A stretch of 50,154 bases of DNA, taken from NCBI GenBank assembly GCA_027037055.1, contig JALWBR010000053.1:1-50154 (forward strand). The letters are read 5' to 3'. Position numbers and translations under genes: made by a program. Positions 1,340-50,154 of this stretch are shown here, one piece after another. The DNA comes from Aquificales bacterium (GTDB taxonomy: Bacteria; Aquificota; Aquificia; Aquificales; Aquificaceae). Every line of letters begins with the position of its first letter. Within the stretch, counting starts at the first letter, position 1. Under the pieces are notes generated by a model. That model was not told the origin of the DNA. It did not search any database and saw only the letters and a program-made list of their open reading frames with translations.

Positions 1340-1382
1340 CCTATTCAGTTGCCAATGAGCCTTGACCGAAACGCAATCTAAT
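1340..1382 (-). promoter_or_regulatory. 16S leader with boxA-like antitermination element
   Basis: The transcribed leader contains TAGATTGCGTTTCGG followed by GGCTCATTGGCAA (1361-1349) and TGAATAGG. The GGCTC-TTGGCAA core resembles the boxA RNA of Aquifex aeolicus bound by NusB-NusE, as I recall it (GGCUCCUUGGCA). Almost the same leader stands before the 23S gene at 50049-50087, so two independent rRNA transcripts share one element. A role in rRNA antitermination or processing is inferred. Confidence 0.7.
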
Positions 1383-1411
1383 AATATACACAAATAACCG
1401 CTGTGCGTCAA
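1383..1411 (-). promoter_or_regulatory. 16S rRNA promoter
   Basis: On the minus strand TTGACG (1411-1406) and TATATT (1388-1383) are separated by exactly 17 bp, a near-consensus sigma-70-type promoter. Transcription would start near 1376, about 73 nt before the mature 16S 5' end. The -35 box begins only 15 bp past the stop codon of the co-directional KamA-like gene. The same TATATT box and downstream leader recur before the 23S gene at 50020-50048. Confidence 0.85.
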
Positions 1412-1425
1412 GCTTTTCTTTGCTA

Positions 1426-2556
1426 TTAAACTACACTCTCACTGCCTATTTCCGCTTTGAAGCTGTCAACCTGTTCCGTATAATCATCAAACCACCGCGC
1501 TTCTGGGTTTCTTCTGAAGACGAGAAATTTACCCCTGTTCTCAGGCGATGCGGATCTGTGATAACGGAAGTATATATACTCTTCAGTTTTGCCCAGTATT
1601 TCTATCTTTCCCGTTTCGTGGGACATCACATACAGTACCCTTGCTCCTAAACCCGACATTCTTGATCTTACTTCTTCTACCAGATCAATTGTATCTTCTA
1701 TGTAAGTTGAGTAGGCTTCATTTCCTACGGTAGGTCTGCATTGGAATACATAGTACGGAGCTACACCGTTGAAGGATAACTCTTCAAGAAGATTGTGTAA
1801 AGTATCCGCATTATCATTTATACCTTTAAGGATAGGTGTTTGATTTGTCATAGGTGTGCCGGTTTTTAATACCAATTTTATGGCTTCCTTTGCCTCTTTT
1901 GTAAGCTCCCTCGGGTGGTTGAAATGATTCATAAGATAAAGTTTTTTGGTTGGTAAGTTGTTGAACCATTCAAATAGTTCAAGGATTTCTTGATCTTCCG
2001 TTATTCTGAAGGGATTAACCGCCAACATCTTTGAGCCTATCCGTACTATTCTCACATGGGGTATTTCCGCCATACTTTCCAGAATTTTGGCAAGTTTTTT
2101 TGTGGAGAGAATAAGCGGGTCTCCTCCTGTCAGAAGGACATTGTTTATTTCCGGATTTTCTTTTATGTAGTTTAAACCTTCCGTAATGTCCCTTGCAACT
2201 TCGTCATTATCGTTCATAAAAAGTCTTTTCCTGAAACAGAAACGGCAGTATATCCCGCATACATCCGTAACAAGTAGGAGGGCTGTATCGGGATATTTGT
2301 GTTCCAGACCGTGGACTTTTGTATATTTACTTTCATTGGATGCATCCAATTTACCCCACACCTTAAGTTCATCCATGGTGGGAATGACTATTTTTTTTAT
2401 GGGATCTTCGGGATCTTCCCAATTTATGAGGGAATTGTAATAATCGTTTGTACGGAAGGCAAATTTATCCGTAACTTCCCTAAGTCTTTCTCTTTCCTCT
2501 TGCGGAATCTGATTTACATGACCTATATCAATGATGTATTTTACACGCCTCTTCAT
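1426..2556 (-). CDS. KamA-family radical SAM protein (lysine 2,3-aminomutase-like)
   Basis: A 376-residue radical SAM enzyme of the aminomutase family. The 4Fe-4S cluster motif CGIYCRFC (C100, C104, C107) and the SAM-binding GGDPL at 144-148 are intact, and Lys317 in ETGKIEIL aligns with the PLP-binding lysine of lysine 2,3-aminomutase. The two aspartates that hold substrate lysine in the clostridial enzyme (Asp293, Asp330) are not conserved: the QCD position reads QCR (Arg274), and the second falls at V310/M311. The protein is therefore unlikely to be a standard lysine 2,3-aminomutase; a different amino acid or an EpmB-like role is possible. Start ATG 2556 follows a good GGAGGTG site. It is transcribed toward the 16S gene, whose -35 box lies 15 bp beyond its stop. 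Family is certain, substrate unknown. Confidence 0.85.
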   Translation of the reverse strand: MKRRVKYIIDIGHVNQIPQEERERLREVTDKFAFRTNDYYNSLINWEDPEDPIKKIVIPTMDELKVWGKLDASNESKYTKVHGLEHKYPDTALLLVTDVCGIYCRFCFRKRLFMNDNDEVARDITEGLNYIKENPEINNVLLTGGDPLILSTKKLAKILESMAEIPHVRIVRIGSKMLAVNPFRITEDQEILELFEWFNNLPTKKLYLMNHFNHPRELTKEAKEAIKLVLKTGTPMTNQTPILKGINDNADTLHNLLEELSFNGVAPYYVFQCRPTVGNEAYSTYIEDTIDLVEEVRSRMSGLGARVLYVMSHETGKIEILGKTEEYIYFRYHRSASPENRGKFLVFRRNPEARWFDDYTEQVDSFKAEIGSESVV

Positions 2557-19232: not shown

Positions 19233-19261
19233 TTGAATTAGTTACCCGGGTTGGATAAATT
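19233..19261 (+). promoter_or_regulatory. Promoter of the large SBBP/ASH gene
   Basis: TTGAAT (19233-19238) and TAAATT (19256-19261) are 17 bp apart. The ATG at 19272 is 10 nt after the -10 box, so the leader would be only about 3-4 nt. No Shine-Dalgarno is present. This also excludes the TTG at 19251 as the start, since it would lie within the promoter. Confidence 0.55.
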
Positions 19262-19271
19262 AAATTTAAGT

Positions 19272-22200
19272 ATGGGATTAAAAAAACTATTTGTTTTTCT
19301 TACTTTCTTTTTCGGTTTAGCCTCGGGTATCCAAATAAACGGTAAGATCATAACGCCTTTTATACACTACGATGGTGGTACATATATAAGTGTCGGTGAG
19401 GGCTACGGTGTAATCGTTAGAGAGGACGGCAAGGTAATTTACAGGGTGGGGAATATTGATTTCGGGGAGGTGTTGGGTAAACCTTCTGGTATAAGGCTTC
19501 TGAATGAAACGAAGACAAAGGTAAGCATTTTTAAGGGTAAACCTTCTACATTTAAAAGGGGATTGAAAACCTATGAGGAGCTTAGGCTTTTGAATGTTTA
19601 CAAGGGTGTTGATGTGATATTCAAGGCAAACAGCAAAGGTATTGAAAAGTTGTATGTTTTCAAGGGGGGTGTTGATCCTAAAAAGGTAAGATTCTTTATA
19701 GAAGGGGGAAAAGTAAGGTTGAGTAAGGAAGGGGGGCTTTTTATTGAGAAGGAAGAAGGTTTATTATATTTTTCAAGACCTAAGGGTTTTCAAATAATAG
19801 ATGGAAAAAAGGTATATGTGGATGTTTATTATGAGGTGGGTGAGGGTTATTACACATTTAAGGTTAGTAATTACTCAAAGGAGCATGACCTTATTATAGA
19901 CCCCATGATAGCGGGTACTTTTCTCGGGGGAGTGTCCCACGATGAACCGGGCGGAAGAAGATCAATAGCTGTTGACGGAAGCGGTAATATATATGTGGTC
20001 GGATTTACAAAATCTTGGGATTTCCCTACTGATTCTGTAAGTCCCCCTCCCGAAACTTCGGGCGGTGATGCCTTTGTAATAAAGGTTGATCCAACCTTTA
20101 GTAGTGTTCTGGCTGTTGCCTTTGTCGGCGGTTCGGGAATGGATATAGGCAAGGGGGTGGTCATAGATCCCTCGGGTAATGTAGTGGTAAGTATTCAGTC
20201 AAGTTCTTCGGATGCACCTGTTTCTAATAATGCTTTTCAGCAGAGTAAAAGCAGTCTTTCCGATGTCTATATCGCAAAGCTATCTTCAGATTTACAGTCT
20301 TTAATTTACGCCACCTATTACGGCGGGTCCGGGGAGGACGAACCTCTCTCATTGGCAGTTGACGGAGCGGGAAACATATATGTTGTGGGAAGGACTTCTT
20401 CTCCGGATCTCTTTATGCCCATAAATGCCTATGACAGTGTATGTAATGCGGGGGGAACAACATGCAGTGACGGATTTTTAACAAAATTCAGCGGGGATCT
20501 TTCACAGGTTATCGGTGCCACCTATGTCGGCGGTCCTGAGGCGAGCCAGGTTAATGATATAGCCATTGATACCGCTGGTAATATTTATGTGGTTGGTTCA
20601 ACGGGTGCTCCGAACTCCTGTAACTTCCCCGGCACAACGGGTACCAATTCGGGCTGGTGCGGATTTATAGCTAAGTTTGATCCTTCTATTTCATCCATAT
20701 CTTCCCGTCTTACGGGTCAAGAAAAGGAATCCGCCAATGTGGTAAAGATTGATGGTTCCGGAAATCTTGTTGTTGCAGGTATAACCCAGGGTGCTCCGAC
20801 CTCGTGTTACTATGATGCGGGTACAAATCAAGTAGTATGTAAGGACGACATATTTGTAAGGATATATGATACGAGCCTGAATGAAATAGCGGGCATATTT
20901 GTGGGGGGACAAGGGCAAGACAATGTTATGGATATTGATTTTGATAGTGCGGGAAATATATACATAGTTGGTTATTCGGATTCTTCGGACATTCAAACTT
21001 TCCCCTCTTCTTTCCAGTACGCAAAAGTTAATACAGAAGACAGCCTGTATGATGGGTTTATTGCTTCCATATCTTCCGATCTTTCTCAGGTGCTTGCTAC
21101 CACATACTTAGGCGGATGCAGGAATGATCTCGCAACCTCAATAATGATATATAACGATGAAATATATGTTGCTGGGCGAACGGATTCTCCGAATTTCCCT
21201 GCAACTCAAGGCTCCATTAGGTCTTCTTACACCTTTCCGGAATATCCCTATACTATCTATGATTCGGGTGTGAATGATGTATTTTTGGTAAGACTTACAA
21301 AAGATCTATCAAGAGGTACGGATCCCCGTATCTCAGAAAGCTTATGTGTGTGGGATTTCGGAATTTACAATGTAGGTAATTCTTCCGCTCCCAAAGAGGT
21401 AAGGATATATAACTTCGGGGGGGCGGATCTGGTAGTAAGCTCTCTAACATTAGATGATACAACCAACTTTTCCATTGACTTGGGAGGAGGTTCTAATCCC
21501 TGTAATCAGTTGCCCGTAACCATATCACCTTCTTCTTATTGTTCTTTTAATATAACCTTCGCTCCCCGTTCCGATGGCACTTTTGAGACTATATTAACCG
21601 TGCAATCAAATGATCCTGTCAATTCAAGCAGACAGATTTTCCTTAAAGGTGTAGGTAAGGGTCCTAAGTTGCAGGTTTATCCTAATCCTATTGATTTCGG
21701 TCCCGTTGGAGTAGGTTCTTCTGTTTCCCAGATGGTTAGTATGAGGAACGGTGGAAGCCTTGACCTTATTATAAATTCCGTGCAAATAAGCGGTGATACC
21801 GTTTTCACCGTAACATCGGATAACTGTTCTGGCAAAACCTTGCCCCCGAATTCTTCTTGCGATATTGTAATCTCCTTTTCTCCTGTAGCCCTTCAGAATT
21901 ACAGCGCTACCGTAACAATAAATTCCAACGATCCTTCTTCACCTGCGGATGTAGAAGTTACGGGAATAGGTGCTCCTAATGAGCCTGATATAAGTGTAAC
22001 ACCCATGAGTTATGATTTCGGAAATGTGTTTGTCGGTGCAAATAAGGTTTTTTCATCCGTTGTCGTTCAGAACAACGGTCTTGTTGACTTGACTGTAAGC
22101 GGTGTTTCTATTTCTGGGTCCGCGGAATTTAAAGTCAATTATACAACATGCACCGGTGCTTCCATCCCTCCGGGCGATTCCTGTATAATAGATGTGCTAT

Positions 22201-24098
22201 TTAAGCCTCAGTCCGCTGGGCAGAAGAGTGCAAGTCTTGATATAACTTCAAATGATCCTGATACTCCCACGGTGAGCGTTTCTTTAACGGGTACGGGTGT
22301 ACCCCCGCCTGTGATAAGTGTTAACCCGACCTCCGTAGATTTCGGTAATGTTATGGTGAACACCTCTGTTGTAAGGACAATTACTATATCAAATACAGGC
22401 TCTTCTGATCTTGAGATAACTTATGTGGGTAACATCAGCCAACCTGTCAGCATAGCACCTGGGCAGACTAACCCGTGTCCCGCAAATACACCCTTTGTTT
22501 TGACCCCCAATCAAAGCTGTACTTATGATCTTACCTTTGCACCCACTCAGGCAGGTTCCATAAGTATGCAACTGCTTATAAGGTCAAATGATCCTGTTAA
22601 CGGTTACCTTTATGTGAATATAACCGGAAATGCTATATTATCGGATGTTCCTGTTATTTCCGTAGATCCATTGTCAATAGACTTCGGAGTTGAGGGAGTG
22701 GGAAAACAGACCCAGCCTTCAAGAATAACGGTAAGTAACTTAGGATCTCAAGTTTTAAGTATATCTTCCGTTACCCTATCCGGAAATGACTTTGTGGTTA
22801 TAACTGATATATGCACGGGTGTAAATCTTAACGCGGGAGATATATGCTATATTGATGTTGCTTTCTCCCCTACCACACTCGGTGCTTTGTCGGGAAGTAT
22901 TACCATAGATTCTAATGATCCGTCAAATCCTTCAGTAGTGGTAACCCTCACGGGCGAAGGTATTTATCCCGATCCCACCATATTTGTTGAGCCGTCCTTT
23001 TATGATTTCGGGGATACGAGTATAGGCTATCCCAAACAGACAACTGTTACTGTTAAGAATATAGGAGACAGTCCCTTGATGATATCGGGCGTTACCATAA
23101 AAGGTAATGATAAAGCGGATTTTGAAATAGCTAATGATACATGTACCAACAATGTACTTTCTTACAATATGCAATGTTTGATTGATGTAAGATTTAATCC
23201 TCAGTCAGTAGGTCAAAACAAATCCGCCTTTATTGAGATAGCTTCCAGCGACCCTGTCAACAGTGTTGTCAATGTTGATCTTTTTGGTAATGCCTTGCCT
23301 CCGCCTGTTATAGTTGTTGATCCTAATATTATTGATTTTGGTGTGGTGCCACTTAATACGGATAAGCAGATTGTAGTTAAGGTTACCAATGCGGGTCAGG
23401 TTAATGTGGTTATAAGGGATGTAAGGGTTGAAGGTACAAATATGGGTGAGTTTGATGCGGTAAGCACATGCTCAGTACTTAATCCTCAAGAGTCATGTAA
23501 TATTACCGTTTCCTTTATGCCCGTAGGTCAAGAAGGAGACAGGAAAGCCCTACTTGCTATCTACCTTGACAGCGGTAGCACGATAAGGGTACAGATACTC
23601 GGTTATGCCAAGGGTGATGACAGCAAACCCTTATACTTACCGGCTATGCTGGAGACTATTGAAATACTTGATTTCGGTAGAAGAAAGGTTAACACTTACG
23701 CGGAAGAGTATATTTGGGTTAAAAATGCGGGGGATGATCCTTTAAAGGTGCTTTACTTCGGATGGGCTGAAGGGGATGTGGGTGAATTCGGTGTGAGGGA
23801 AGATGTATGTTCTGGGAAAATTCTTAATAAAGGAGAGTCTTGCTATTTTAAAGTGGGATTTATACCCTCAAGGGAAGGTAGCCTTAGGACAAACTTCCTT
23901 ATATACTGGAAGGGTATTTATGATACGGAAGAGAAAGAGCATTTAATAATAGTAAAAGGGACGGGAGAGGTCAACTTATTCGGATGTTCCGCGGGAGGTT
24001 CTTCCTTTGCTGGTTATATTATTCTTGCTTTAATAATTAAGTATCTGAGTGTCCATTTCCTGAGTTCTATAAGGAGAAACAGAAGGAGGGATGAATAA
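19272..24098 (+). CDS. Giant secreted SBBP beta-propeller / ASH multidomain surface protein
   Basis: A 1608-residue exported protein. Signal peptide about 1-20 (KKLFVFLTFFFGLASG); an N-terminal domain to about 210 typical of SBBP proteins (ending DLIIDPM-AGTFLGG); about ten SBBP beta-propeller repeats, 215-680, each with a variant of AVDGSGNIYVVG; then eight ASH (ASPM-SPD2-Hydin) immunoglobulin-like domains starting near 686, 800, 908, 1014, 1128, 1236, 1348 and 1459. Most ASH domains carry two cysteines (D-C-G---PP--SC), a probable disulfide. The tail GCSAGGSSFAG, a hydrophobic helix and RRNRRRDE resembles Cys-containing C-terminal sorting signals. It shares this plan with 26521-29256. The last 85 bp overlap the convergent P-type ATPase gene. 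Likely a cell-surface adhesin or scaffold; the exact role is unknown. Confidence 0.85.
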   Translation: MGLKKLFVFLTFFFGLASGIQINGKIITPFIHYDGGTYISVGEGYGVIVREDGKVIYRVGNIDFGEVLGKPSGIRLLNETKTKVSIFKGKPSTFKRGLKTYEELRLLNVYKGVDVIFKANSKGIEKLYVFKGGVDPKKVRFFIEGGKVRLSKEGGLFIEKEEGLLYFSRPKGFQIIDGKKVYVDVYYEVGEGYYTFKVSNYSKEHDLIIDPMIAGTFLGGVSHDEPGGRRSIAVDGSGNIYVVGFTKSWDFPTDSVSPPPETSGGDAFVIKVDPTFSSVLAVAFVGGSGMDIGKGVVIDPSGNVVVSIQSSSSDAPVSNNAFQQSKSSLSDVYIAKLSSDLQSLIYATYYGGSGEDEPLSLAVDGAGNIYVVGRTSSPDLFMPINAYDSVCNAGGTTCSDGFLTKFSGDLSQVIGATYVGGPEASQVNDIAIDTAGNIYVVGSTGAPNSCNFPGTTGTNSGWCGFIAKFDPSISSISSRLTGQEKESANVVKIDGSGNLVVAGITQGAPTSCYYDAGTNQVVCKDDIFVRIYDTSLNEIAGIFVGGQGQDNVMDIDFDSAGNIYIVGYSDSSDIQTFPSSFQYAKVNTEDSLYDGFIASISSDLSQVLATTYLGGCRNDLATSIMIYNDEIYVAGRTDSPNFPATQGSIRSSYTFPEYPYTIYDSGVNDVFLVRLTKDLSRGTDPRISESLCVWDFGIYNVGNSSAPKEVRIYNFGGADLVVSSLTLDDTTNFSIDLGGGSNPCNQLPVTISPSSYCSFNITFAPRSDGTFETILTVQSNDPVNSSRQIFLKGVGKGPKLQVYPNPIDFGPVGVGSSVSQMVSMRNGGSLDLIINSVQISGDTVFTVTSDNCSGKTLPPNSSCDIVISFSPVALQNYSATVTINSNDPSSPADVEVTGIGAPNEPDISVTPMSYDFGNVFVGANKVFSSVVVQNNGLVDLTVSGVSISGSAEFKVNYTTCTGASIPPGDSCIIDVLFKPQSAGQKSASLDITSNDPDTPTVSVSLTGTGVPPPVISVNPTSVDFGNVMVNTSVVRTITISNTGSSDLEITYVGNISQPVSIAPGQTNPCPANTPFVLTPNQSCTYDLTFAPTQAGSISMQLLIRSNDPVNGYLYVNITGNAILSDVPVISVDPLSIDFGVEGVGKQTQPSRITVSNLGSQVLSISSVTLSGNDFVVITDICTGVNLNAGDICYIDVAFSPTTLGALSGSITIDSNDPSNPSVVVTLTGEGIYPDPTIFVEPSFYDFGDTSIGYPKQTTVTVKNIGDSPLMISGVTIKGNDKADFEIANDTCTNNVLSYNMQCLIDVRFNPQSVGQNKSAFIEIASSDPVNSVVNVDLFGNALPPPVIVVDPNIIDFGVVPLNTDKQIVVKVTNAGQVNVVIRDVRVEGTNMGEFDAVSTCSVLNPQESCNITVSFMPVGQEGDRKALLAIYLDSGSTIRVQILGYAKGDDSKPLYLPAMLETIEILDFGRRKVNTYAEEYIWVKNAGDDPLKVLYFGWAEGDVGEFGVREDVCSGKILNKGESCYFKVGFIPSREGSLRTNFLIYWKGIYDTEEKEHLIIVKGTGEVNLFGCSAGGSSFAGYIILALIIKYLSVHFLSSIRRNRRRDE

Positions 24099-26520: not shown

Positions 26521-29256
26521 TTATACATTATATTTCCTTCTTAACAAGGATATTATCATTATGCATATAAATATGTATGTGCCTGTAAAGAGGGAACAAC
26601 TGTCTTCTTTTATCTCAATACTGTGGCTTACAACGGTAGCGGTAAGTTCTATAAGGAAGGGATTGTTATTTTCATCATCAGAGGATACGAGAATGGTTCC
26701 CTTTATATTGCCGGATCGTGTAGGCTTTACTTTAATTCTTATAATGCATCCCGTCTCTGGTTGTATGACCTTTCCGCTACATTTGTCCTCGTAGATGATT
26801 ACGGGATCGGAGACAGTTACATTACTTATGGTCAGGGGATAATCCCCCTTATTGATTATAGGGATCTCCTTTATATATTCTTTGTTTGCTTCTATGACTC
26901 CGAGATTAATATTTGTTGAGGGAGAATATATCTGGGGTGAAGATCCATAACCGTTCAGTTCTATGGCTAAAAGGTTTGACTTAGGATCGTTTGATTCTAT
27001 TTTTAATATATCTTTGAATGATCCCTTTTCTTTGGGTTTAAAGGATATTTTAAGTGAACATGAGCTACCTTGAGGGATATCCTTTCCTGTGCACAGATCT
27101 TCTTTTACCATGAAACCTTTAGACCCTTCTGTGAAAACATTAATTATTTTTAAAGGATAAGGACCTCTGTTGATCACATTTATTGTCTTTACATTGCTCT
27201 CTTTACCCACCTTCGTGTTGCCGAAGTCAAGGCGACTTACATTTGTATATATTGCCGGATTTGATAGGGTTGGATCAAATTTGGCTACAAATACATCCCA
27301 GAATCCCCGTGAGGAAGGCTGGGTGGTCACGGGGATATCGGAAGAGGTTGTTTTACCTGTTACATATATGTTATTTTGGGAATCAAGAACAAGGCTCCTT
27401 ATCAGGTCATCATTGGAACCTCCGTAGTATGTGGAATATATGAGGGTGGTGAGATCTCCCGAAATCTTAAACACTATCCCGTTATCCCCGGGCGGTGGTT
27501 CTTCCATAAAGGCGTACCTTGTTACAGGAAACCCGAGAACATAATTATGTCCCACACCTACTATATTGCCGTTCCCATCTATTTTGATATCGTAGATTTC
27601 TTCATCCGACCTGCTTCCTATGTAAGTTGATGCCAAGATTTGTTTGAGATCTCCCCTTAACTTCGTTATAAAACCATCACCCCACGAGTAGCCTCCCTTG
27701 TTTACCGTTTGGTATGCTCCTGAAGTTACAGGGAAATCAAAGGACTTGGTTTTCCCCGCCACATATATATCACCGTTTTGATCAACCTCTATGGCGTTTG
27801 AATAATCAAGGGAGGTGCCACCCAGATGGGTTGAAGCGGATAGCTGAGGTGTTACCGTATCAATTATGGAAACGAAGACATCTGGAGCACTTGATATAAG
27901 CGGTTGAACAACACCAGAAGTTGTGGGGAAGTTGGAGGAGTTGGTATATCCTGTTATGTAGAGGGTATTATTCCTTATTTCCACATCGCTTAAACTTTCT
28001 ACACCGTCACCTCCCAGATAGGTTGAGAAAAGCAGATTTGAGAGATCCGGTGTAAATTTTGCAAGGATAATATCGTATCCCCCTGCAAGGGTGTTTTGGA
28101 TGGGATTTGCCAGCGGTATGTCCGTGCTATTTGATCTTCCCCCTATGTAAACATTACCGGAAGAGTCTATATTCACTGATGAACAATACTCATGGGCGCT
28201 TCCCCTGAAGAGGGTGCCTCCGAGTATGCTGTCAAGGTCCTTCGTCAATTTGAGTACAAAGCAGTCATAATCATTACTGTTATAGGGTCTTGAAGCTTGG
28301 AAACTGCAGAAGGAACAGTTGGGATTAGCATTGCAATCGCAAAGTCCGGGCATATCTCCTGAATCCGTATCTCCAACTATGTATATACTATTTCCCGATA
28401 TTGCTATATCTTTCCCGTACTCGGTCTGGGAACCGCCTATGTAAGTGGCGGATACGAGGTTGAAATCGGGATCAAATTTTGCAATGAAAGCGTCCCACCC
28501 GTTGCGGGTTTGATCCACCGCTGTAGAGGAAACGGGAAAGTCATAGGAATAAGTTGTGCCAGTTATATAAATGAAGCCCTGATCGTCTATCTCTATGTCC
28601 GCGCTGGAATCATTATAAGATGCGTATATTACTTCTCCATGAAGGAGGGGGTCAATGGTAATGGGGGATTCGGGATCATATTCACCCTTTATTTTGAATC
28701 CGTAAAAGTTATTTCTTATCCAATAAGCAACTGCCACCTTTTTACCCTTTTGGAAAGCTATGGGACTGGTAAATATTAATTTTTCACTTTTTAAATTGAC
28801 AACCAAATTACCTTCCTTGTCTTTATATATATCCTTTGCGCCTTCTATCTTAAATCTTAACCTTGATATGTCCTTTGCCTTAGAAAGTCTTATTATTTTT
28901 TCTACCCTGCCTTCTCTTAATACAAGATTTATCTTTAAATCCTTCCCTTTAAGAATGACCGATTTGTATGCCCGGAGATTTCTTTTCCAGCCCGTTTTAC
29001 CTTTGAATATATTGATTTTTGCCTTTAATTTATTTTCTCCTTCAACTCTTATAACTTTTAGACCTTCTATCCTTTCAGTGAATTTTTCCTTTTTAAGTAA
29101 ATACTCTATTTTTCCATCGGAAAGTATATTAATTGAGTAATATTTTCCATAGTTGATAAATTTACCCTTGTCTATTTCAATAAATGCGATAATATTTCCC
29201 GGCGATAAGCCTGCGAATAGTATAAGTAACCCTATTACCAATAAAGCACGACTCAT
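26521..29256 (-). CDS. Secreted SBBP beta-propeller / ASH surface protein
   Basis: A 911-residue relative of the 1608-residue protein. Signal peptide about 1-24; N-terminal SBBP-associated domain to about 210 (ending SPITIDPLLHG); about seven to eight SBBP repeats (IDSSGNVYIGG, VDQNGDIYVAG and similar) from 220 to 660; two ASH domains at about 665-765 and 770-870, each with a Cys pair (LCTG to SSCS; KCSG to TGCI). The tail is CSLFTGTYIFICIMIISLL then RRKYNV: cysteine, membrane helix, basic end. It follows the TolC-like gene by 18 bp and precedes the P-type pump by 5 bp, so it is in an operon adaptor-OMF-SBBP-pump. The domains point to surface display. How it relates to ion or drug export is not known. 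Confidence 0.85.
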   Translation of the reverse strand: MSRALLVIGLLILFAGLSPGNIIAFIEIDKGKFINYGKYYSINILSDGKIEYLLKKEKFTERIEGLKVIRVEGENKLKAKINIFKGKTGWKRNLRAYKSVILKGKDLKINLVLREGRVEKIIRLSKAKDISRLRFKIEGAKDIYKDKEGNLVVNLKSEKLIFTSPIAFQKGKKVAVAYWIRNNFYGFKIKGEYDPESPITIDPLLHGEVIYASYNDSSADIEIDDQGFIYITGTTYSYDFPVSSTAVDQTRNGWDAFIAKFDPDFNLVSATYIGGSQTEYGKDIAISGNSIYIVGDTDSGDMPGLCDCNANPNCSFCSFQASRPYNSNDYDCFVLKLTKDLDSILGGTLFRGSAHEYCSSVNIDSSGNVYIGGRSNSTDIPLANPIQNTLAGGYDIILAKFTPDLSNLLFSTYLGGDGVESLSDVEIRNNTLYITGYTNSSNFPTTSGVVQPLISSAPDVFVSIIDTVTPQLSASTHLGGTSLDYSNAIEVDQNGDIYVAGKTKSFDFPVTSGAYQTVNKGGYSWGDGFITKLRGDLKQILASTYIGSRSDEEIYDIKIDGNGNIVGVGHNYVLGFPVTRYAFMEEPPPGDNGIVFKISGDLTTLIYSTYYGGSNDDLIRSLVLDSQNNIYVTGKTTSSDIPVTTQPSSRGFWDVFVAKFDPTLSNPAIYTNVSRLDFGNTKVGKESNVKTINVINRGPYPLKIINVFTEGSKGFMVKEDLCTGKDIPQGSSCSLKISFKPKEKGSFKDILKIESNDPKSNLLAIELNGYGSSPQIYSPSTNINLGVIEANKEYIKEIPIINKGDYPLTISNVTVSDPVIIYEDKCSGKVIQPETGCIIRIKVKPTRSGNIKGTILVSSDDENNNPFLIELTATVVSHSIEIKEDSCSLFTGTYIFICIMIISLLRRKYNV

Positions 29257-47848: not shown

Positions 47849-49474
47849 TCACTGGGCACAGCAGGATAACTTTGATATATCTCTTACAAAGCTTAAGGCA
47901 CACAACTTTACTGATTCCGAGAGGGTAGGGTATATATCTACCATCTCTATTACATCTTCAACGGTAAGACCGTACTTTACTATAGGGACCGCCTTATGAA
48001 TTATTTCCGCACCTTCTTCCGCAAGTATATGTACACCGAGGATTTTATTTGTTTTTTCCTCTGCGAGCATCTTTATAATTCCTTCCTTTTTACGGCTTAG
48101 GATGGCACGGGGAACCTTTGAAAATTCAAGCATAGTTGATCTATAGGATATCCCCCTATTTTTTAGCTCTTCCTCTTTGTATCCCACGGAGGCAAGCTCT
48201 GGATCGGTGAATATAGCGTGGGGTATAGAGTTGTAATCAATCTTTTTAACATTGCCGAGCAGTGCATTCTCTGAGGCTACCGCACCCTCTAATGCTGCCA
48301 CCGTTACAAGCATATATCTTCCAACACAGTCACCTGCCCCATAGATTTTTTCCTTAGTTGTCTGTAAATATTCGTTTGTTATAATAAAACCCCTTTCATC
48401 TATTTCAACGCCCACTCTATCAAGACCTATATTTTCCGTGTTGGGTTTTCTGCCCGTTGCTATAAGTATATCAGTACCGCTAATTTCCGTAACTTTCCCG
48501 TCCCTCATAAGTTTCACAGTTACTCTTTCTCCTTCCCTTTTAACTTGCATAATGCGGGCGGAGGTCAGTATTTCCATGCCCTCTTTTTCAAGCAATTCCC
48601 TTAACCTCTTAGTTAATTCGGGTTCTTCGTTTCCCCCTATGCGTTCGGTTGCTTCAATAATTGACACCCTGCTACCCATCCTGAGAAATGCCTGTCCTAT
48701 CTCAAGACCTACTGCCCCCGCGCCTATTATTATCAGGTGTTCTGGTAAATGGTCTATATCAAAAATGGAATCGCTCGTATATGCTTTTACATGCTCAATA
48801 CCCGATACGGAAGGTAAAGAGGGTCTTGATCCGGTTGTTACAATAGCCTTAAAGAAAGTGATTTCTTCACTACCTACCCTTGCCCTTTTCTCATCAATAA
48901 ACTCACCCATTTCCTGTTTGTAGTCAATCGTAGGGTAGGCATCAAGAACATCCCAATACTTTTCTTTCCTCATCTTTTCTATGAGCATCTTAAGTTCCGC
49001 TAATACTTCCTTGAAATAAATCTCACCTTCGGTGTTTTTAATACTTCCATATCTCGGTTTTTTTATTCTGTAAAACTCCTTGGCTACATCTATTAAGAAC
49101 TTTGAAGGTATACAACCTCTATTAAGACATGTTCCCCCTATTACATTGTTTTCAACTATTAAAACTTTTGCACCGAGATCGGATGCCCTTATTGCAGCGC
49201 TGAAACCTGCAGAGCCCCCTCCAAGGATAAAAAGATCATATACATTACCCTTGGATATATAGATCTGCGGATGCTCTTCAATCTTTTCAGCCTTGTAACC
49301 CGTCTTTTCCACTGCTTTAATTAACTCGGATAATTTTGCTTCCCCCTCAATTTCCGCGTAGCCTTGAAGGAAGAAAACTTCTACCTTTTTAACCCCCTCA
49401 ACACCCTCCAATGCTTTCTTTATTTTGATTGCACAGTGCTCACATGTCATCCCATAGATTTTTAACCTTATCAT
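47849..49474 (-). CDS. merA: Mercuric reductase with N-terminal HMA domain
   Basis: A 541-residue flavoprotein reducing Hg2+ to Hg0. HMA metal-binding domain at 1-66 (GMTCEHC, C11, C14); FAD GGGSAG; redox disulfide GGTCLNRGC (C116, C121); [15 protein letters not shown]; dimer domain; and the diagnostic C-terminal vicinal pair C538-C539 (SCCAQ) that delivers Hg2+. This separates it from lipoamide dehydrogenase. The HMA fused to MerA may stand in for the absent MerP. ATG 49474 has a GGAGG site embedded in the last codons of merT. Aquificota are known carriers of deep-branching merA. Confidence 0.95.
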
Positions 49475-49476
49475 CT

Positions 49477-49812
49477 TTAACCTCCGTAAATCTTAACAAA
49501 CACATAGGGATATACTGTTGCGAATATAAGAAGAAATAAAGCGGTCCATGTGATACCTTTGCTAAGTTTCTTTATCCGGCGGGGTTCTTCGCATGCGCAT
49601 TTCGGATCTTTTATATAAAGTTTGTAGAAAGAGTAGGCTACAGCAACATATCCTATTGTTAAAAAAATGGGTCTGTAAGGTTCAAGTACTGTTAAGTAAC
49701 CGAGTCCTCCTGCGGATACACCGAACACCACAAAAAGGGTGGGTCCTATACAGCATGATGCTGCCAATAGGGATGCAATCGTTCCGAAAAGACCGCTTAT
49801 CATCTCCTTCAT
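49477..49812 (-). CDS. merT: Mercuric transport protein MerT
   Basis: A 111-residue inner-membrane protein with three predicted helices. The vicinal Cys pair C20-C21 in TM1 (AASCCIGP) and a second pair C72, C74 on a cytoplasmic loop (DPKCAC) carry Hg2+ inward to MerA. The start is ATG 49812: the next in-frame start upstream (49872) lies at the promoter -35 box. The transcript start at about 49837 leaves a short leader holding GGGGGTATAGG. No MerP or MerR follows or precedes. Confidence 0.92.
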   Translation of the reverse strand: MKEMISGLFGTIASLLAASCCIGPTLFVVFGVSAGGLGYLTVLEPYRPIFLTIGYVAVAYSFYKLYIKDPKCACEEPRRIKKLSKGITWTALFLLIFATVYPYVFVKIYGG

Positions 49813-49817
49813 ATACC

Positions 49818-49872
49818 TATACCCCCTATGGGTATAATACAGAATTATAGGATTATTAACCCAATATGTCAA
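49818..49872 (-). promoter_or_regulatory. merTA promoter with CsoR-type operator
   Basis: Minus strand TTGACA (49872-49867), 17 bp, TATAAT (49849-49844): a perfect sigma-70 consensus. Starting at about +1 is the inverted repeat TATACCC-N5-GGGTATA (49836-49818) with a G-tract (ATACCCATAGGGGGTAT), nearly the ATACCCTACGGGGGTAT operator of B. subtilis copZA bound by the copper repressor CsoR, as I recall it. MerR operators look different. The repressor gene is not in the window. Confidence 0.8.
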
Positions 49873-50019
49873 TATTTATAAGGCCCGTTGGAAAAATACC
49901 CCAAGACTTATGAAAAAACCAGGGGATTAAGACACAATAAAAGGGGCTTATACAGAAGAAGGAGACTTTTTTATTCCCTTTCCCCTTTTTGTTTATATTT
50001 TTTAAACGGGCTGTATTTC

Positions 50020-50048
50020 TTGACACCGTGTATGGGATGGTATATATT
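50020..50048 (+). promoter_or_regulatory. 23S rRNA promoter
   Basis: TTGACA (50020-50025), 17 bp, TATATT (50043-50048): near-perfect consensus on the plus strand. Same -10 hexamer and spacing as the 16S promoter. Transcription would start at about 50055 and run directly into the 23S gene, about 53 nt on. The 148 bp before it (49873-50019) hold no gene I can support. Confidence 0.85.
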
Positions 50049-50107
50049 AATAGATTGCGTTTTGGCACATTGGCAATTGAATAGGTGTTAGCGGGAGAGA
50101 AGGAGGA
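50049..50107 (+). promoter_or_regulatory. 23S leader with boxA-like element, near copy of the 16S leader
   Basis: TAGATTGCGTTTTGG, then GGCACATTGGCAA (50064-50076), then TTGAATAGG; the 16S leader reads TAGATTGCGTTTCGG, GGCTCATTGGCAA, CTGAATAGG. The main difference is a 6-nt deletion between the two blocks. Such conservation in an otherwise unalignable region implies function or recent duplication. Confidence 0.75.
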
Positions 50108-50154
50108 ATGCAAGGTAGTAAGGGTCCGGGGTGGATGCCTCGGTTCCCGGAGGC
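50108..50154 (+). rRNA. rrl: 23S ribosomal RNA, 5' end only
   Basis: The last 47 bp read AAGGTAGTAAGGG, then GGGGTGGATGCC and CCCGGAGGC, the conserved 5' end of bacterial 23S (E. coli: GACTAAGCG, CGGTGGATGCC, AGAGGC). Counting back from GGTGGATGCC puts the mature 5' end near 50108. No 16S or tRNA precedes it on this strand. The remainder lies beyond the window. Confidence 0.9.

Follow-up and report, generated by a model that had tools for sequence, protein, structure and literature searches.

Split 16S and 23S–5S rRNA units in an Aquificaceae genus: possible origin by boxA-to-boxA deletion in a duplicated operon

Bacterial 16S and 23S rRNA genes are as a rule neighbours and cotranscribed. Separate 16S and 23S–5S rRNA units are known from Helicobacter pylori, Borrelia, Thermus and Dehalococcoides (PMC7761764, PMC8708148), and the driver of rRNA operon splitting has been described as uncertain (PMC7761764). 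In H. pylori the 16S is transcribed apart from 23S–5S, and an antisense RNA lies over the 23S–5S leader; RNase III processing of both precursors is experimentally established there (PMC8708148, PMC7761764), and is predicted from sequence in the genus considered here. Thermus, Dehalococcoides and Borrelia resemble this genus in having 16S and 23S far apart and small genomes, with some being thermophilic (PMC7761764, PMC8708148). No report of split rRNA genes in Aquificota was found in our literature search, whose scope did not include the principal survey (Brewer et al. 2020). The split operon is a known but uncommon arrangement, to which an Aquificaceae genus adds a new case with an unusually legible origin. 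H. pylori, which also has two copies of each rRNA unit, belongs to another phylum, implying an independent origin. Unlike H. pylori, the genus keeps tRNA-Ile and tRNA-Ala behind one 16S, and its 23S leader reads as a fusion with a 16S-type leader. Thermus, Dehalococcoides and Borrelia differ in belonging to other lineages; the Aquificaceae genus keeps RNase III and a 2:2 ratio of unit copies.

The window, the whole stretch of DNA analysed (50,154 nt), is the entire contig C53 of a draft genome (G000) of 1,669,334 nt (1.67 Mb) that is 99.96% complete. G000 is an Aquificaceae-like bacterium, and its genus is represented by the four genomes examined. All four are draft metagenome assemblies; none displays all eight rRNA junctions, and the middle part of 23S is unassembled in every one. 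Both window ends are contig ends, at which assembly breaks cut the 16S and 23S genes; nothing suggests that either is a gene fragment. The paired contig ends share exact overlaps, of 127 nt in G000 and G001 and of 151 nt for the two 16S contigs of G002, a genome with public contigs named k151. Overlaps of this kind mark a two-copy repeat, at which a de Bruijn assembly graph breaks, and this accounts for where the window stops.

The right end of the window (50108–50154, plus strand) holds the 5′ end of a 23S rRNA gene (copy A). These approximately 45 nt align with 23S starts at 17 loci of relatives, whose 23S genes were located by DNA search. Since so little of the gene is assembled, Rfam searches for 23S in the window and in G000 returned no match. 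Upstream lies a predicted sigma-70-type promoter (50020–50048, plus strand), comprising a −35 element TTGACA (50020–50025), a 17-nt spacer and a −10 element TATATT (50043–50048), from which transcription would be expected to start near 50055. It fits the consensus at 11 of 12 positions. Promoter-like matches occur in the window at chance level (4 found versus 3.4 in shuffles), so the match alone is little proof. At the counterpart 23S ends of G001 (C231) and G002 (C106), TTGAC and the spacing are kept, as are 43 of 43 nt from the −10 element to a downstream repeat, whereas the 90 nt upstream of the promoter are alike at only 20–34 positions. A conserved core against diverged flanks is the mark of selection, here apparently on promoter and leader. 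Sequence and conservation together indicate that the 23S–5S unit has its own promoter. The leader (50049–50107, plus strand) is a hybrid, 16S-type as far as the repeat and then of the spacer type found before 23S. The repeat itself, TTGGCAATTGAATAGG (50070–50085, plus strand), is 16 nt long, and the same box precedes 16S and 23S in most relatives; we presume it to be boxA-like purely by resemblance to boxA of E. coli and B. subtilis.

A single 16S is present in the window, at the opposite end, on the minus strand and facing outward (copy A, 1–1303, truncated on its 3′ side where the contig ends); together with one tRNA it accounts for all Rfam matches in the window. 16S-A and 23S-A are thus two separate, divergent loci 49 kb apart, far beyond a normal spacer, and the 49 kb upstream of the 23S hold no 16S on the plus strand. 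The preliminary description had recognized this layout, with a promoter-bearing 23S lacking an upstream 16S, and both parts of that reading stand. The 16S also has a predicted promoter (1383–1411, minus strand) with TTGACG at 1411–1406 and TATATT at 1388–1383, spaced by 17 nt as before 23S. It is followed by a boxA-like repeat, TTGGCAACTGAATAGG (1340–1355, minus strand), which falls within the predicted 16S leader–trailer helix. Whether a 23S follows the 16S to the left of position 1, as the preliminary description had asked, is answered by contig C45: it begins with the last 53 nt of 16S-A and then carries tRNA-Ile, tRNA-Ala and protein genes, the nearest of which encodes a PAS-GGDEF-EAL protein. 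Upstream of 16S-A is a KamA-like radical SAM gene (1426–2556, minus strand), a homologue of which sits a few kb upstream of 16S in the linked genomes G007 and G022. A homologue of a C45 gene is located about 6 kb downstream of the linked operon in G007. Judged by these homologues, the 16S-A locus retains its old linked-operon neighbourhood on both sides.

The separation extends across the genus. In all four genomes one contig starts within the last 49–72 nt of 16S, followed by the two tRNA genes (Ile, Ala) and, beyond them, by protein genes, and no 23S was found in the 3–20 kb past the 16S 3′ end. Both 16S copies of G002 (on C6 and C80) have 3′ flanks without 23S. C6 passes unbroken through the tRNAs into protein genes; C80 diverges from it precisely where tRNA-Ile begins and, over 18.9 kb, contains neither a tRNA nor any match to 23S. 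Both 23S 5′ flanks of G001 consist of protein-coding or insertion sequence (IS) DNA preceding the same promoter-leader. We regard the unlinked state of 16S and 23S in the genus as well supported and highly likely. In contrast, among relatives of the same family whose 16S was readable with its downstream flank, 15 of 15 loci in 12 genomes are linked in the order 16S, tRNA-Ile, tRNA-Ala, 23S. Three loci from another family are also linked. Linked Aquificaceae-like genomes (G005, G007 and G011) share the boxes before 16S and 23S and the same tRNA pair, but have 23S within about 50 nt of tRNA-Ala, where the split genus has none. Because all 12 readable family genomes are linked, and because the window groups with linked genera of the family in a 16S tree (support 94/92, below the starred threshold), the split was probably derived within the family.

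Copy number was assessed from the flanks of each gene. Two 16S 5′ flanks are present in G000 (C53 and C43), two 16S 3′ flanks in G002 (C6 and C80) and two 23S 5′ flanks in G001 (C231 and C182); in G000 only one 23S 5′ flank was found. Each of these three genomes, at about 99% completeness, has exactly two 5S flanks, which by sequence fall into two types shared among them, X and Y (tmRNA side). On G002:C4 the 5S directly follows the 23S, 40 nt from its 3′ end. Combined, the drafts contain two 16S and two 23S–5S loci, all separate, which bears on the copy count that the preliminary description had proposed to check and supports its claim of unlinked rRNA genes.

A further linked operon could have escaped assembly, leaving the separate genes as extra copies. 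Bins often lose short spacer contigs, and the 23S middle is missing throughout the genus. Such an operon would, however, require one more flank than the two seen, for 5S as well as for the 16S 5′ end, since every gene needs equal numbers of 5′ and 3′ flanks. With exactly two 5S flanks in each of three nearly complete genomes there is no room for one, barring contigs absent from all three drafts. Flank searches of G000, G001 and G002 never gave more than two for 16S or 23S, and C6 of G002 is continuous from 16S through the tRNAs into protein genes; we consider a hidden operon very unlikely. Chimeric contigs or a strain mixture at conserved rRNA might also be suspected, as the drafts are of low coverage and the breaks fall in rRNA genes, a weak point of metagenome assembly. 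Against this, assemblies produced independently and at differing k-mer lengths show these flanks again, on which ground chimeric assembly was rejected, and three genomes whose surroundings have diverged have an identical joint of promoter and leader. An assembly or binning artefact is accordingly exceedingly improbable.

The preliminary description had suggested that the divergent genes could be what an inversion left behind after breaking a normal operon between 16S and 23S. The outward orientation of 16S-A and 23S-A fits this. A simple inversion, however, would give neither an rrn promoter on 23S nor duplicate units; here the 23S bears a hybrid, 16S-type promoter and each unit is present in two copies. 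The tRNAs have also stayed with 16S-A, and linked-operon neighbours are conserved on both of its sides. The proposal is not supported by these comparisons, and we rate an inversion as highly unlikely. Loss of RNase III as the cause of the split was also rejected, as the gene (rnc) is present; it was found in the linked G007 and G011 as well.

The origin of the split may be recorded in the 23S leader. In most linked relatives TTGGCAACTGAATAGG or a closely similar box occurs twice, upstream of 16S and in the stretch from tRNA-Ala to 23S (the box is degenerate in genus g10). Upstream of the box, the window 23S leader aligns with the 16S-A leader with a score of 31, against 9.5 for the best of 2000 shuffles. 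Genus g5 also has the ATATATTAATAGA of this part at its 16S promoter, and in the spacers of relatives this position is occupied by tRNA-Ala. As in the spacer, the box before the window 23S has a GGT end and is separated from the gene by about 24 nt, whereas the window 16S box ends in GGG. By these affinities the 23S leader is a fusion, with a promoter half of 16S type and a 23S-proximal half of the old 16S–23S spacer type. As the halves differ in affinity on either side of the box, the joint is placed at the box, as expected if box–box recombination deleted 16S and the tRNAs. We propose that the rrn operon was first duplicated. One copy would then have lost 23S–5S after tRNA-Ala, and the other would have lost 16S and the tRNAs when the boxA-like repeats preceding 16S and 23S recombined, a deletion that would fuse the rrn promoter to 23S. 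Duplication with complementary deletion is the origin that we favour with some reserve. The full reading, in which the whole genus has four separate rRNA loci (two 16S and two 23S–5S) after a boxA-to-boxA deletion in a duplicated operon, has in our estimate an even chance of being correct.

The predicted folding of the precursors is consistent with independent units. Pairing of the 16S leader and trailer, both taken from G000, gave −61.0 kcal/mol, compared with −25.2 (sd 4.1) for shuffles. The predicted 5′ strand of the 23S helix (50072–50115, plus strand) was recognized by complementarity to the 23S–5S spacer of G002, with an 89% match to its complement; with this G002 trailer the duplex reached −73.7 kcal/mol, compared with −28.9 (sd 4.4) for shuffles. 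In the proposed working, which resembles that of the H. pylori units, 16S (copy A together with tRNA-Ile and tRNA-Ala) and 23S–5S would be transcribed separately from their own sigma-70-type promoters, each may undergo antitermination through its boxA-like element, and RNase III would free 16S and 23S from separate precursors at their own helices. Linkage would not be needed because each unit has its own promoter and RNase III release, and the 2:2 copy number would hold the supply of 16S and 23S in balance. Overall, it is very probable that the genus has separate 16S and 23S–5S units, in two copies each, with their own promoters and leader–trailer helices, their likely source being a duplicated operon.

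If true, the still legible joint offers a directly testable route of rRNA operon splitting in bacteria, and small- and large-subunit rRNAs would be under independently tunable promoters. The leader suggests both a specific route, by recombination of a repeated boxA-like element, and what must stay, namely promoter, box and processing helix. Amplicon surveys spanning 16S-ITS-23S would miss the genus.

Directly before the 23S promoter lies a 129-nt MITE-like element (49883–50011), a deletion derivative that carries both ends (GCCCGTT...) of an IS with a DDE_Tnp_1_5-like transposase. Larger copies of this IS adjoin 16S-B (G000:C43, L062 160–600) and 23S-B (G001:C182, L059 3290–4085), and an IS end seems to adjoin 16S-B in G002. 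A link between the IS and the split is disfavoured, 23S-A of G001 being without IS. The relic is probably outside the split mechanism, and the IS near rRNA units look like later insertions close to active promoters.

Among relatives, the two sites L135 and L136 of G036 (another family; G036:C1 near 354.5 and 822.0 kb) are extra copies of the 23S 3′ part with 5S, additional to a linked operon; neither 16S nor a 23S 5′ part was found in the 8 kb scanned upstream. The 23S of G011 (L029, minus strand, query ~2292–2946) is interrupted by about 650 nt of inserted sequence whose ORF bears a LAGLIDADG-like motif, WVVGFTDGEGCF, probably a homing-endonuclease intron. In the window, mercury-handling genes (47849–49872, minus strand), for MerT and for a MerA-like reductase that carries an HMA domain, lie directly upstream of the 23S unit and are transcribed away from it. 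The window also encodes two large proteins combining SBBP beta-propeller repeats and HYDIN/ASH-like Ig domains, of 1615 aa (19251–24098, plus strand) and 911 aa (26521–29256, minus strand), with a P-type cation ATPase between them.
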